DNA of 37,590 nucleotides, from IMG/VR virus record IMGVR_UViG_3300047509_000068, positions 1-37,590 of that record; one strand, 5' to 3'. A model generated the notes under the pieces. The model saw nothing but the letters and a program-made list of their open reading frames with translations, searched no databases and was not told where the DNA came from. Made by a program: the position numbers and the translations under genes. Shown here piece by piece: positions 2,637-37,590 of the stretch (positions within the stretch are counted from its first letter, which is position 1; the number at the start of each line of letters is the position of its first letter). Source of the DNA: a virus.

Positions 2637-2810
2637 ATGCCGCCTGAAAAGAATATGACCGGGAAGCCGAGGCCCGTTCCGGAGGACGTAAAGAAGAAGC
2701 AGGATCCCGCGTACTCGGAGGCCAACTTCGACCACGCCTTGTGGCGAGCTACGAAGCGGCTAGGGATCCGCCTCCCCGGCAAACGCGGTCGAGGATCGTC
2801 CAAAAGATAG
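2637..2810 (+). pseudogene. Small protein truncated by IS1595 remnant
   Basis: From ATG 2637 the 57-residue frame reads MPPEKNMTGKPRPVPEDVKKKQ, then YSEANFDHALWRATKR. The FDHALWRATKR stretch resembles small uncharacterised proteins with an F-D-x-A-L-x-x-A-x-R motif. The last 16 residues or so are the antisense of the transposase remnant on the other strand, so the native C-terminus is probably missing. ATG 2637 is preferred over the longer frame from 2544 because the extra N-terminus is serine/proline-rich and unlikely. Confidence 0.4.
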
Positions 2811-3030
2811 GCCGCTCGTCTTTCCGGTGATTCCACCGGAAGGTGTACTCGTCCAAGTAGTTCGGCAGGTACTTCGCGCTGACCGAATGATGGGCGCCGC
2901 GGACGCTGTTCTTGAACAAGGCGAAGAACGACTCGATCGAGTTCGTCGTCGCGCCGTCCGCAGCCACATACACGCGCTGCTTGTGATTGATGCGGCGGTG
3001 GCCCTTGTACTCGCGCCCGATCCCGACGTA
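2749..3030 (-). pseudogene. IS1595-family transposase, C-terminal remnant (second copy)
   Basis: Read on the minus strand, the sequence gives YVGIGREYKGHRRINHKQ, then a VYVAADGATTNSIESFFALFK block, then the YLPNYLDEYTFRWNHRKD block. This is the canonical end of the IS1595 DDE domain, including the T-N-S-I-E-S-F-F motif and the final FRWNHR. Upstream (above 3030) the frame has no transposase similarity and meets a stop near 3090, so the N-terminal two thirds are gone. It differs clearly from the remnant at the window ends, so it comes from a different family member. Confidence 0.85.
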
Positions 3031-3278
3031 TAGTGGGTCACTTTGGAAGCTGACCCACCACCGTTCTGACGCGCCTTCACGCTTTGCTCATAGGAGGGTG
3101 AGATAGTCAGACCTCGAAGCTCTCTACCGAGAGCCGACGACCGAGGTGAGCCAAATAAGTCATCCCCCGTACAAGGACTGACGATGGAACCGCGTGCCGC
3201 CTCTGGCCTTGAGTTCGTATCGACAGGAAGCCGCCCGTTGCCGGGCGAGGTCGCGCAAGCGCATAGGGAGCTTGGATC
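3031..3278. other. Gene-free stretch after IS remnant, with a two-part hairpin
   Basis: No gene is supported here. A stem-loop lies at 3111-3147: outer arms ACCTCG/CGAGGT enclosing a tight GCTCTC-TACC-GAGAGC hairpin. No T-tract follows, so a terminator role is uncertain. AGGGAG at 3265-3270 is the probable ribosome site for the gene starting at 3279. Confidence 0.4.
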
Positions 3279-3677
3279 CTGAAACTGTGGTGTGCCGCCC
3301 TCGTCAGCGGAGTGTCGTTGGCGGTCGCCCCCGTCGCGCACCCTTCACCCATGCCTGTGCGCTGGCATGCGCCGCGCGCGTGGCTAGGCAGCCCGCCGAG
3401 CAGAAGCCATCCCTACGGGACAGGTGCATGGTGCATCCACGAACGCGAAGCTGCCTGGAACGACGAGTCGGCGTCGCAGCAGGGCGGAATGCAAGAGGAT
3501 TACGGGTTCCAGCACACCTACGGGCTCGAGTTCGTACGGCGGTGGGGCGACGCCGGCCACTGGCCGGCGTGGGCGCAGCTCGAGGCGGCATGGCGCGCCT
3601 ATCACGGCTACCACGGCTACAAGGCGCGCGGCTGGTCGCCGTGGCCGAACACCTCCCGGATGTGCGGCCTTAGATGA
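3279..3677 (+). CDS. Secreted lysin/transglycosylase-like protein, probable CTG start
   Basis: The C-terminal 85 or so residues have a W/Y-rich fold signature: WCIHEREAAWND, then GGMQEDYGFQHTYG, WPAWAQLEAAWRAYHG and WSPWPNTSRMCGL. This resembles the short transglycosylase/lysozyme-like domain attached to secreted proteins in Thermoleophilia-type actinobacteria (from memory of the family). The only ATG/GTG start in frame is GTG 3312. Beginning at CTG 3279 adds LKLWCAALVSG and completes a signal peptide (through SLAVAPVA), and AGGGAG lies 8 bases upstream of that CTG. The gene ends in an ATGA overlap with the HNH gene. It may act on peptidoglycan as an accessory to the main endolysin at 29978. 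Confidence 0.6.
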   Translation: MKLWCAALVSGVSLAVAPVAHPSPMPVRWHAPRAWLGSPPSRSHPYGTGAWCIHEREAAWNDESASQQGGMQEDYGFQHTYGLEFVRRWGDAGHWPAWAQLEAAWRAYHGYHGYKARGWSPWPNTSRMCGLR

Positions 3678-3946
3678 CCTGCGCGATGGCGTCCCTCGAC
3701 CCTGACTGCGAGCCCGGCCTTGAGCGCCACCATATTCTGCCGCGCCAGAAGCTGCGGCAGGCTGGGCACGCCGACAAGATCACGGATGCGCGCGACATCC
3801 TCGTCCTTTGCACCCGCCATCATCGGCGGAACCACAGCGGGCGGCAGCCTGTCCCGAGGGCTGTGCTCGACCTCGCCGTCGAGACCGGGCTTGAGTGGTA
3901 CCTAGCGAAGCACTACCCCGCAACCGAAACGGAGGGCAAGCAATGA
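3674..3946 (+). CDS. HNH-type nuclease-like protein
   Basis: A 90-residue protein with LERHHILPRQKL (His19-His20) and LVLCTRHHRRNHSG (His49-His50, Asn53-His54), the beta-beta-alpha metal core of HNH endonucleases. It is short but complete for the minimal fold. ATG overlaps the previous stop by 4 bases. Phage HNH proteins assist packaging or act as homing or nicking enzymes. This one is 1.7 kb from the terminase-linked HNH gene, so a DNA-processing role in replication is equally possible. Confidence 0.7.
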   Translation: MTCAMASLDPDCEPGLERHHILPRQKLRQAGHADKITDARDILVLCTRHHRRNHSGRQPVPRAVLDLAVETGLEWYLAKHYPATETEGKQ

Positions 3947-4179
3947 GCACTGCGAGCAAGGAAACCCGAGTGAAGACCACCTACCACGTCTTCGCAGAGA
4001 ACGACGGAGCCGACGGCAAGAGGTACTCGCCCATCGCCGCGAATGTGGAGGCGGCGAACAGCCAGGACGCGATCCGGAAGACCGTCAAGACGTCCGGGAG
4101 CTATGTCGCGATCCCGGCCAGGTCGTTCGTCGTGGTGAAGGTGAAGATCGAGCAGGTCTCAGTGGTCAAGCTGACCTGA
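3943..4179 (+). CDS. Unknown 78-residue protein
   Basis: A small protein with alternating beta-like segments (TTYHVFAENDG, YSPIAANVEAANSQDAIRKTV, YVAIPARSFVVVKVKIEQVSVVKLT). No family is recognised. The start at 3943 overlaps the preceding stop (ATGA), and the composition is typical of the phage genes around it. It is the last gene before the interleaved inverted repeats at 4213-4289. Confidence 0.65.
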   Translation: MSTASKETRVKTTYHVFAENDGADGKRYSPIAANVEAANSQDAIRKTVKTSGSYVAIPARSFVVVKVKIEQVSVVKLT

Positions 4180-4212
4180 TTCTCGCATCGGGGGGTGGGA
4201 AGATGACTGGAT

Positions 4213-4289
4213 GGCGACGAACCGGCTCTCACTCCCTTGAGCCCAGACCGCGACCGAACGGTTCGTCGCCTAACGGCGCGGTCTGGGCT
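4213..4289 (+). promoter_or_regulatory. Two perfect interleaved inverted repeats (pseudoknot or alternative-stem element)
   Basis: Arm A at 4213-4224 (GGCGACGAACCG) pairs perfectly with A' at 4259-4270 (12 bp). Arm B at 4240-4252 (AGCCCAGACCGCG) pairs perfectly with B' at 4277-4289 (13 bp). The order A-B-A'-B' makes the two stems interleave, which is the topology of an H-type pseudoknot. With only 6 bases between A' and B' the two full stems would be strained together, so they may instead be mutually exclusive. B' ends 4 bases before the ribosome site GGAGG (4294-4298) of the replication gene. The element could control that gene's translation or form part of a replication origin; the sequence alone does not decide. 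Confidence 0.8.
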
Positions 4290-4304
4290 GAACGGAGGTA
4301 GGTT

Positions 4305-5039
4305 GTGCCCTGGGTGAAGCTCGACGACGAGTTCCCCGACCACCCGAAGGTCGTCCTCGCCGGACCTCTGGCCGGGTGGCTGCACGTGTGCGGCATCTGC
4401 TACTGCAACCGGCACCTGACTGACGGGTTCATCCCTCGAGCTGCAGCGCACCGGCTCGCGAACTTCGAGCACGTCGGCCTCACAGGCACCGACGACGCCC
4501 TTGTCGCGGTCGGTGAGGCTGTCGACTGCAAGCAGCTCGCTGCGGTCCTGTGCGACGCTGGGATCTGGGAGGAAGTTGCCGGCGGATACCGCATCCACGA
4601 CTACCTCGACTACCAGCCGAGCAAGGCTGACATCGAGGAGATACGTCGGCAGAAGCAAGCAGCTGGTAGAGCAGGTGGTATAGCAGCTGCTAAAGCACGT
4701 GCTGGTGCACGAGCTATGGCACCTGTTATAACAGTCGCCGTAGCAGAATCCAAGCCCGTACCCAAGCCCAATCCCAATGAAGAGAAGGTCCTAGCCCTTG
4801 CAGTAGACGTGGAAGGGCTTGGGCTTCAAGAAACACTTTGGAGACGGCTCTGTGCTGCTGCCGGCGCGAAGGATGCCGACGCCATCCAGAAGCTCGAGCG
4901 GACGATCCGCGCGAACCGTTGCAGCGAACGCGACATCGTCTGCGCGATCGAAGCAGCCACCGGGCCCGGAGTCCGAGACGCGCTTGGCGTCGCCCTCTCC
5001 GAGCTCAAAAAGCGTTCAGCCGAACGAGCCACGACATGA
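4305..5039 (+). CDS. Replisome-organiser-like replication protein
   Basis: A 244-residue protein. Residues 1-110 have the pattern of phage replication initiators of the N-terminal replisome-organiser/DnaD type: WVKLDDEFPDHPKVVLAG, WLHVCGICYCNRHLTDGFIP, then AGIWEEVAGGYRIHDYLDYQ. Residues 115-160 are an alanine/proline-rich linker. The C-terminus (about 170-240) is helical, as expected for a DnaD-like tail. GTG 4305 has GGAGG 6 bases upstream. It probably binds the phage origin and recruits host helicase (family knowledge). The base composition around 4660-4800 is slightly lower in GC within the linker. The structured leader just upstream suggests controlled expression. Confidence 0.65.
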   Translation: MPWVKLDDEFPDHPKVVLAGPLAGWLHVCGICYCNRHLTDGFIPRAAAHRLANFEHVGLTGTDDALVAVGEAVDCKQLAAVLCDAGIWEEVAGGYRIHDYLDYQPSKADIEEIRRQKQAAGRAGGIAAAKARAGARAMAPVITVAVAESKPVPKPNPNEEKVLALAVDVEGLGLQETLWRRLCAAAGAKDADAIQKLERTIRANRCSERDIVCAIEAATGPGVRDALGVALSELKKRSAERATT

Positions 5040-5258: not shown

Positions 5259-5329
5259 AAAACTCCACACGAGCGGGGGGGGATAACGCAATTGGGCGGG
5301 GTCGGATGCTCGATTTTGCGTGGAGTTTT
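5259..5329. other. G-rich nested hairpin before HNH/terminase, candidate cos site
   Basis: Outer arms AAAACTCCAC (5259-5268) and GTGGAGTTTT (5320-5329) are perfectly complementary. A second pair CGAGC (5270-5274) and GCTCG (5308-5312) nests inside. The loop carries G-runs of about 7, 3 and 4 (GGGGGGGATAACGCAATTGG...). The position between the early genes and the HNH-small terminase pair is where cos sites of HNH-using phages are usually found, and cos sites often contain dyads and G-rich overhangs. The T-run after the right arm also makes it terminator-like. The cos assignment is inference. Confidence 0.4.
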
Positions 5330-5354: not shown

Positions 5355-5576
5355 ATGCGGTATGGGGCTGCTCATTGGCGGTTGCGGCGTGTGTTGGGGC
5401 CGGTGGTGGCGTCGGGGTCGGCTCGGTGTGCTCGGTGTGGTGGTGTTATCGGGCCCGGTGAGCCGTGGGATCTGGGTCATGTGGATGGGACGGAGCGGTA
5501 TGCGGGGCCGGAGCACAGGCGTTGTAACCGGAGCACGGCTGGTCGGCGGCAGGTGAGGGCGAGCCGTGTCTGGTAG
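5355..5576 (+). CDS. Terminase-associated HNH endonuclease
   Basis: A 73-residue protein with CARCGGVIG (Cys25, Cys28), WDLGHVDG (His42) and HRRCNRSTAGRR (His54, Cys57, Asn58), a complete zinc-bound HNH motif. An in-frame stop lies directly before ATG 5355, which fixes the upstream limit. Known: HNH proteins next to the terminase of HK97-like phages are needed with TerL for specific cutting at cos. Gene order here (HNH, one small gene, another, TerS, TerL) supports that role. The end overlaps the next gene by 11 bases. Confidence 0.8.
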   Translation: MRYGAAHWRLRRVLGPVVASGSARCARCGGVIGPGEPWDLGHVDGTERYAGPEHRRCNRSTAGRRQVRASRVW

Positions 5577-19604: not shown

Positions 19605-19617
19605 CCGGATCCGTGTA

Positions 19618-19641
19618 GACCGGGGGCTCCGGCCCCCGGTC
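19618..19641 (+). terminator. Hairpin with UCCG tetraloop after capsid gene
   Basis: GACCGGGGGC (19618-19627), loop TCCG, GCCCCCGGTC (19632-19641): a perfect 10-bp GC stem 13 bases after the capsid stop. No T-run follows (TCTGGGTTCT). It may terminate part of the transcripts or protect the 3' end of capsid mRNA. Confidence 0.6.
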
Positions 19642-19678
19642 TCTGGGTTCTGCTCACGCCCCGCGAAGGGAGAAAGCG

Positions 19679-32081: not shown

Positions 32082-32375
32082 ATGAGCCAGTGCGACCGTG
32101 TCCTCGCCGTACTCAAAGACGGGCGCCCCCATTCGATGCGGGAGATCCACGCGCGCGCCGGATTCATGCGGCTCAACTCGCGCATCTCCGATCTCCGCAA
32201 CCGCGGCCACGAGATCACCTGCACCCGCAAGAAGGGCGACTACGTCTACCGGCTCATCTCGCCTGCAGAGCCGCAGCCTCAAGCCGCCCCGACGGCCCCC
32301 TGCGGCTCTGCAGACGAGAGCGGCCAGCTCGCCCTCCATGTCCCGCGCGGCGCCTATGAGGAGCAGGCGGCGTGA
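32082..32375 (+). CDS. Winged-helix DNA-binding protein
   Basis: A 97-residue protein. CDRVLAVLKDGRPHSMREIHARAGFMRLNSRISDLRNRGHEITCTRKKGDYVYRLI is a full winged helix: helix 1, the S-M-R-E-I-H turn, recognition helix N-S-R-I-S-D-L-R-N-R-G and a wing with K-K-G-D-Y-V-Y-R-L. The same layout occurs in phage helix-turn-helix proteins that control early functions. The C-terminal 40 residues are Pro/Ala-rich. It is a candidate regulator of the early region or of integration. The end overlaps the next start by 4 bases. Confidence 0.7.
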   Translation: MSQCDRVLAVLKDGRPHSMREIHARAGFMRLNSRISDLRNRGHEITCTRKKGDYVYRLISPAEPQPQAAPTAPCGSADESGQLALHVPRGAYEEQAA

Positions 32376-37307: not shown

Positions 37308-37590
37308 GTGAGCGAGACCCCGCTTCCCACAACGCTTATGCAGGCGATTCGGTACTTCTCTGACCCGGACGTTTGCGTCGAGTTCGTCGCCAAGCTCCGT
37401 TGGCCTGACGGTCCCGTATGCCCCGCCTGCGACGGGCGCGAACACTCGTACCTGACCACGCGCCGGGTATGGAAGTGCAAGGCCTGCAAGAAGCAGTTCA
37501 GCGTCAAGCTCGGGACGATCTTTGAGGATTCCGCTGTCCCGCTCGACAAGTGGCTGGCCGCGATCTGGATGCTGGCTAACAGCAAGAACG
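37308..37590 (+). pseudogene. IS1595-family transposase, N-terminal part (continues at 1)
   Basis: GTG 37308 opens SETPLPTTLMQAIRYFSDPD, then FVAKLRWPDGPVCPACDGRE and VWKCKACKKQFSVKLGTIF: the N-terminal zinc ribbon (CPAC ... CKAC) of IS1595/ISXO2 transposases, then WLAAIWMLANSKN. The window ends in frame, and the same sequence (127 bases) restarts at position 1, where the frame soon stops after an internal deletion. If the molecule is circular, the whole remnant is 37308-37463 joined to 1-189, with detached C-terminal coding up to about 300. It still has a strong promoter, so a truncated zinc-ribbon protein could be made. Confidence 0.85.
37464..37590. repeat. 127-bp terminal direct repeat, right copy
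   Basis: Identical to bases 1-127. It supports circular closure, giving a unit of 37,463 bp. All expected head, packaging, tail, lysis and integration genes occur once in that unit. Confidence 0.95.

Follow-up and report, generated by a model that had tools for sequence, protein, structure and literature searches.

Interleaved complementary arms upstream of RepA-like phage initiator genes suggest a nascent-RNA switch in the leader transcript

Immediately upstream of a gene for a RepA-like replication initiation protein, the window (the whole stretch of viral DNA analysed here, 37,590 bases) carries two perfect inverted repeats interleaved in the order A–B–A′–B′, and the same arrangement, built from changed sequence, recurs before five other genes of this kind. 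From these sequences, the element is probably a nascent-RNA switch, i.e. a conditional terminator capable of forming a pseudoknot, which would lie in the untranslated leader of the initiator transcript and set the amount of initiator; in the window, occlusion of the ribosome site is the more likely mode of action. Control of initiator levels by leader RNAs is textbook knowledge for plasmids. The sequences analysed here point to a similar, as yet unnamed device in unrelated phages, and one pair of leaders shows clear covariation. If the switch reading is true, it offers a handle on how such phages time or silence replication.

Results

Two interleaved stems cover the ribosome site of the initiator gene

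The window, a virus record, encodes terminase, portal, capsid and tape-measure proteins as well as a tyrosine integrase (Pfam Phage_integrase, 3e-20). Its ends (1–127 and 37464–37590) are identical over 127 bases, as a circular assembly would produce. A tblastn search with the initiator gene leads to RepA-like initiators of actinophages. Upstream of this gene, A complements A′ over 12 bp and B complements B′ over 13 bp, both without mismatch (Table 1), exactly at the positions and in the interleaved order given in an earlier note on this DNA. That note also judged a chance origin very unlikely, which is borne out by a scan for perfect repeats of at least 10 bp with gaps up to 80: the pair is the only interleaved one in the whole window, and 100 order-2 Markov versions of the window yielded one such pair in total, at the lower threshold of 10 bp. 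The 12- and 13-bp cores thus stand, but the B stem does not end before the ribosome site as had been stated: it grows outward to 19 of 21 pairs (4232–4252/4277–4297; 21-nt arms, 90% complementary), and the outer pairing CUCC.UU./.AA.GGAG runs on to 4297 and spans the ribosome site, CUCC facing GGAG (4294–4297). The stem also grows inward, CCG (4254–4256) pairing with CGG (4274–4276). A′ has a weaker third partner at 4250–4258, with one bulge, and this pairing may be due to chance.

Table 1. Features of the initiator leader and gene in the window
Feature	Position	Strand	Evidence
Promoter-like pair CTGATT-17-GAAGAT, very weak	4176..4204	+	Position matching relatives' promoters only
Open frame, 32 codons, Shine-Dalgarno GGGGGG, coding doubtful	4203..4301	+	Shine-Dalgarno −10.7 kcal/mol; codon use
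Arm A, 12 nt, GGCGACGAACCG, probable 5′ end region of leader RNA	4213..4224	+	Perfect complement of A′; position relative to −10 box in five relatives
Outward extension of B (CUCC, UU), partner of Shine-Dalgarno	4232..4238	+	21-nt arms, 90% complementary
Arm B, 13 perfect pairs, AGCCCAGACCGCG	4240..4252	+	Duplex −27.8 kcal/mol
Weaker alternative partner of A′, GCGACCGAA	4250..4258	+	−7.5 kcal/mol
Inward extension of B (CCG)	4254..4256	+	Pairs with 4274–4276
Arm A′, within B hairpin loop	4259..4270	+	Duplex −23.2 kcal/mol
Inward extension of B′ (CGG)	4274..4276	+	Pairs with 4254–4256
Arm B′, ending 15 nt before start codon	4277..4289	+	Complement of B
Outward extension of B′ (AA, GGAG), which includes most of Shine-Dalgarno	4291..4297	+	21-nt arms
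Shine-Dalgarno GGAGG of initiator gene	4294..4298	+	Anti-Shine-Dalgarno duplex −10.8 kcal/mol
RepA-like replication initiation protein gene, GTG start	4305..5039	+	PHROG 2447 (replication initiation protein) 3.3e-29, residues 1–159; PHROG 3926 2.9e-22; tblastn
12-bp-period repeats within initiator gene, candidate origin, outside leader	4658..4717	+	Repeat pattern, partly palindromic

The 100-nt stretch that begins at 4191 has a fold stability above that of all 750 sampled windows of the genome. As duplexes, the 13 pairs of B are more stable than A:A′, and as hairpins the extended B stem (−41.5 kcal/mol) exceeds the A stem (−23.2 kcal/mol). For a growing transcript, the prediction is that A:A′ forms when the RNA ends at 4270–4280 and that B replaces A from 4285 onwards.

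The arrangement recurs before five other RepA-like genes

Close relatives of the window were sought in several ways: DNA searches and first protein scans gave nothing near, no leader-region DNA similarity was found in phages, the initiator protein had no match in plasmids, and the exact B/B′ pattern had none in IMG/VR. With the terminase, the portal and the upstream gene as baits, only short or distant contigs that did not reach the leader were recovered, so that near relatives of the window yield no classic covariation. Two profile scans with initiator alignments enlarged the set by 158 loci. When 386,642 bases were searched under a strict criterion for interleaved, near-perfect stems, 14 interleaved pairs emerged, versus 9 in shuffled DNA. 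In five of the 14 (the four best and one other), B′ ends 16–34 nt before a RepA-like start; these are the window and loci L032, L040, L043 and L048. The remaining pairs are scattered, and their number is close to that of shuffled DNA.

Once the sets were joined and stripped of duplicates, 148 distinct leaders of homologous genes were available, with start codons assigned automatically; cultured phages contributed 26. A weaker stem of at least 9 Watson–Crick pairs, with B′ near the start, is present in six leaders (0.37 expected), and one of at least 10 pairs in five (none in 8,880 shuffles). Control stretches of the same loci never reached 9 pairs, whether coding (0/148) or located more upstream (0/132). 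The six members are the five loci named above and L131; as the window prompted the search, it is not counted as independent evidence, and the other five count. This recurrence at the same place agrees with the proposal of the earlier note that the element is a pseudoknot or a two-state RNA leader. It also bears on the idea that we are dealing with chance, or with an ordinary terminator and a fortuitous second repeat: simple strong hairpins do precede RepA-like genes in several other phages, but a second interleaved stem in six leaders, against the expectation given above and its absence from the controls, makes this explanation scarcely credible.

The element is absent from 142 of the 148 homologous leaders, including the first repA relatives (L003–L005) and the 26 cultured-phage leaders. 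Homologous leaders devoid of the stems had been named beforehand as an argument against the element; given these 142, the argument applies in part. When leaders were scored by a permissive, energy-based knot measure, they could not be told apart from shuffles (25% versus 22% at 18 kcal/mol), and applying this measure genome-wide was uninformative. Only the strict criterion of near-perfect stems made the distinction; imperfect members would therefore be missed. One further leader, L094, looked interleaved at first and was dropped; its stems overlap other hairpins. The members are scattered on the Rep tree, where at least three changes are forced (few alignment columns, weak forks), and a single inheritance of the element is not supported by this weak tree.

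Pairing rather than sequence appears to be kept

Compared pairwise, the member leaders show no resemblance beyond that of shuffles for any two, and the arm sequences are unrelated in most of the five relatives. The initiators of L040 and L131 are 61% identical, and the geometries of their leaders are almost superimposable (L1 68/63, L2 13/20, L3 11/10, B′-to-start 18/18, span 152/153). Between these two leaders, 10 of the 13 pairs of the A stem and 9 of the 16 pairs of the B stem differ on both sides, and none differs on one side only, so that 19 of 29 pairs have been replaced on both sides. The compensatory changes that the earlier note suggested looking for are thus found in both stems, in the form of wholesale two-sided replacement. 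This is the clearest sign that pairing rather than sequence is kept, bearing in mind that it is one comparison and that the stems were selected for pairing. More generally, searching by architecture (A–B–A′–B′) brings to light RNA elements that escape searches based on sequence or nested structure.

Promoters and T-rich tails delimit an RNA unit in the relatives

All five relatives have a sigma-70-like promoter shortly before A, with 5–15 nt between the end of its −10 box and A: TTGACG-18-TAGGAT (L032), TTGACA-16-TAGAAT (L040), TGTACA-17-TATGAT (L043), TGGACA-17-TAGCGT (L048) and TTGACA-18-TATCAT (L131). With this spacing, the transcript would begin at A or close to it. The promoters of L032, L040, L043 and L048 score as high as or higher than at least 98% of shuffled versions of their stretch, a level reached in about 1–2.5% of windows from the same locus. 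At the other end of the element, B′ is followed by a T-rich tail in L032 (GGGGATTTTCTTTT), L040 (GGGGCTTTTTGCTTT) and L131 (GATTTGCGTTT); the tail of L048 is weak (only CCTTTGT), and a T-run is absent after B′ in L043 and in the window. The B stem ends 18–21 nt before the start codon in four of the five relatives. The Shine-Dalgarno sequence is contained in the B stem in the window only; the relatives do not conceal theirs. The promoter-like pair of the window is no better than shuffles (53%), and its leader shows no convincing promoter. Lacking both this signal and a T-run, the window owes its place in an attenuator model to its geometry.

A DNA-level function, with the arms serving as an operator, a cruciform or an origin for the initiator, is very improbable: perfect palindromic arms can also fold as single-stranded DNA, but the promoters before A and the T-rich tails after B′ mark an RNA unit in the relatives, and candidate origin repeats sit inside the initiator gene. 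The cruciform origin considered in the earlier note is accordingly disfavoured. The 12-bp-period repeats in the middle of the gene, which are also partly palindromic, are the likelier candidate for a replication origin, in analogy to origins known within other phage initiator genes.

In L131, the B′ sequence occurs a second time further upstream, and this extra copy can, by its sequence, pair with B in the manner of a textbook antiterminator; the stretches concerned lie at −154 to −143 and −97 to −86, counted from the start codon at position 1201. A further crossing helix, GCCGGTGT/ACACCGGC, is seen in this leader.

Scans of the window and the member loci with the whole of Rfam 15 gave no hit above the curated threshold for the element (in the window, only tRNA), and the best matches to the element loci are sub-threshold and at chance level. 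These scans support the statement of the earlier note, which recognised no known riboswitch or phage element here. In the literature consulted, we found no phage precedent for the A–B–A′–B′ arrangement.

Discussion

A model for the switch

In the model that we favour, the element would be the untranslated leader of the phage replication-initiator transcript and would be active as RNA. Its common core would be a stem just before the start codon, the loop of which complements the 5′ end of the same transcript. The polymerase would make A first, and A could pair with A′ as soon as A′ emerges, at a time when B′ is not yet made; A:A′ would have this head start because A′ is made before B′. The stronger B:B′ stem would then form, with A′ in its loop. 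In three relatives, this stem runs into a T-rich tail and therefore looks like a transcription terminator; the output in the relatives would be a choice between termination and continued transcription of the initiator gene. In the window, where the B stem extends over the Shine-Dalgarno sequence, the closed stem would block translation, and the output would be a closed versus an open ribosome site. A:A′ would set the amount of initiator either by delaying B:B′ (a switch) or by stacking with it (a pseudoknot). What the sequences themselves show is that the two stems are complementary, that they recur with altered sequence, and that the relatives have promoters before A and, in part, T-rich tails; we infer the kinetic competition between the two pairings and the sign of its effect. 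A ribosome, an antisense RNA or a protein might tip the balance. B wins over A by energy in five of the six members, so that A could be secondary.

The choice between delay and stacking may depend on the A′–B′ spacer, which is 1 nt in L032, 6 nt in the window and 10–26 nt in L040, L043, L048 and L131, for a span from A to B′ of 77–153 nt across the members. Where the spacer is short, full A:A′ and full B:B′ should exclude or strain each other; that of L032 is too short for both full stems to exist simultaneously. Where it is long, in the last four leaders, geometry makes an H-type pseudoknot possible.

Loop lengths feasible for an H-type fold in these four leaders would also suit a stable pseudoknot to which a protein binds, either the initiator or a regulator of the phage, so that translation is repressed; T4 gp32, acting on its own mRNA, is a phage precedent (PMC535899). 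Recognition by a protein sits poorly with member leaders that share no conserved sequence and with the lack of a visible single-stranded repeat motif downstream, and we regard this possibility as quite unlikely. Like the T4 gene 32 operator, the phage element has an H-type pseudoknot, here predicted, upstream of the ribosome site of a replication gene; unlike it, its stems are much longer and UUAAA repeats are not seen, while T4 has no terminator and protein binding to the phage element is only putative (PMC535899).

A purely translational switch has somewhat more in its favour, although we consider it unlikely as well. In the window, an open frame contains the whole element, has a good Shine-Dalgarno sequence and ends 3 nt before the initiator start; a ribosome travelling along it would open the B stem that hides the Shine-Dalgarno sequence of the initiator gene and re-initiate 3 nt further on, the A:A′ pseudoknot forming behind it. 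IncI/IncB plasmid rep leaders, as cited in PMC10286972 and PMC10724649, provide a precedent. The codon use of the frame is non-coding (below 99% of coding chunks), for which reason coupling to a leader peptide is kept as an alternative only; moreover, a 32-codon open frame is common at this GC content, and the relatives do not hide their Shine-Dalgarno sequences.

Relation to known leaders

The proposed nascent-RNA switch would work like plasmid rep leaders (IncI-alpha/IncB, pIP501), yet we assign it to neither group. In the IncI/IncB rep leaders, the pairing is a short loop contact, whereas the arms of the phage elements form 10–17 perfect pairs. The leaders of IncI-alpha ColIb-P9 repZ, IncB repA and IncL/M repA (Asano and Mizobuchi 1998 and others, as cited in PMC10286972 and PMC10724649) share with the phage element a replication-initiator gene and a pseudoknot-capable pairing upstream of it and, with the window in particular, a ribosome site in a stem (GGAG, 4294–4297) and a leader frame ending at the start. 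The phage leaders differ in that no antisense RNA promoter was found in them (sigma70 scan of four), that relatives have T-tailed stems and that the coding character of the window frame is doubtful.

Attenuation in pIP501/pT181 (PMC4981023) involves a rep gene, a dedicated promoter and a leader terminator competing with an upstream pairing, a scheme that the phage leaders may share. Those systems belong to plasmids and the present one to phages; its leader is shorter (77–153 nt from A to B′ versus 329 bp), its arms follow the order A–B–A′–B′ with A′ in the loop of the putative terminator, and no countertranscript was found for it (PMC4981023 for the plasmid side). The sigma70 scan detected no minus-strand promoter match in the leaders of the window, L040, L032 and L131, so that antisense control of the pIP501 type is not supported.

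In the immunity systems of phages P4 (CI RNA) and P1 (C4 RNA), early termination in a leader located upstream of replication or early genes is controlled by RNA pairing. Early termination under such control is what the phage element would share with them; a processed or trans-acting RNA is a feature of theirs, while the phage element, known from its sequence, has no Rfam match to C4. The element could nonetheless be the precursor of a trans-acting RNA of the immunity type: terminated prophage transcripts would stop the polymerase from reading through into an infecting relative's initiator gene, with diversifying arms setting the specificity. A promoter and a T-rich tail do delimit a short RNA in L032, L040 and L131, the arms diverge while the architecture stays, and the window phage encodes an integrase. 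Against this, neither a trans target nor an antisense promoter was found, Rfam gives no C4/P4-like match, and A:A′ and B:B′ are complementary in cis; we judge such a precursor improbable as the main explanation. Tentatively, and returning to the nascent-RNA switch, these leaders might form an undescribed class of phage regulatory RNA in which an arm close to the promoter contacts the loop of a stem just before the initiator gene, this stem being a terminator or blocking the ribosome. The architecture would be kept while the sequence is replaced, perhaps because the leader, once terminated, has a second role in trans as an RNA of the immunity type whose pairing is specific to the lineage.

Additional observations

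The gene that follows the L040 initiator has a weak match to the G39P helicase-loader family (0.0012, short of the curated cut-off), which would fit a replication module. In L003, two RepA-like frames lie in tandem at 2822–4404, and the first of them seems to carry a fused HNH-like tail. About 40–90 nt before the RepA-like starts of L067, L071, L082 and L084, there are strong simple hairpins that lack an A arm; those of L067 and L084 have related sequences. In the window, the identical 127-base ends read by eye like part of an IS1595-type transposase gene, and a similar-looking fragment is apparently present on the minus strand near 2800–3040. Just upstream of an HNH gene (5355–5576), inverted AAAACTCCAC and GTGGAGTTTT flank a G-rich stretch at 5259–5329, a possible terminator or cos region. 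A 20-nt inverted repeat (95% complementary, 23-nt loop) lies within small overlapping reading frames at 32257–32319. Finally, an 11-bp hairpin at 19617–19642, directly after the major capsid gene, is probably a terminator.
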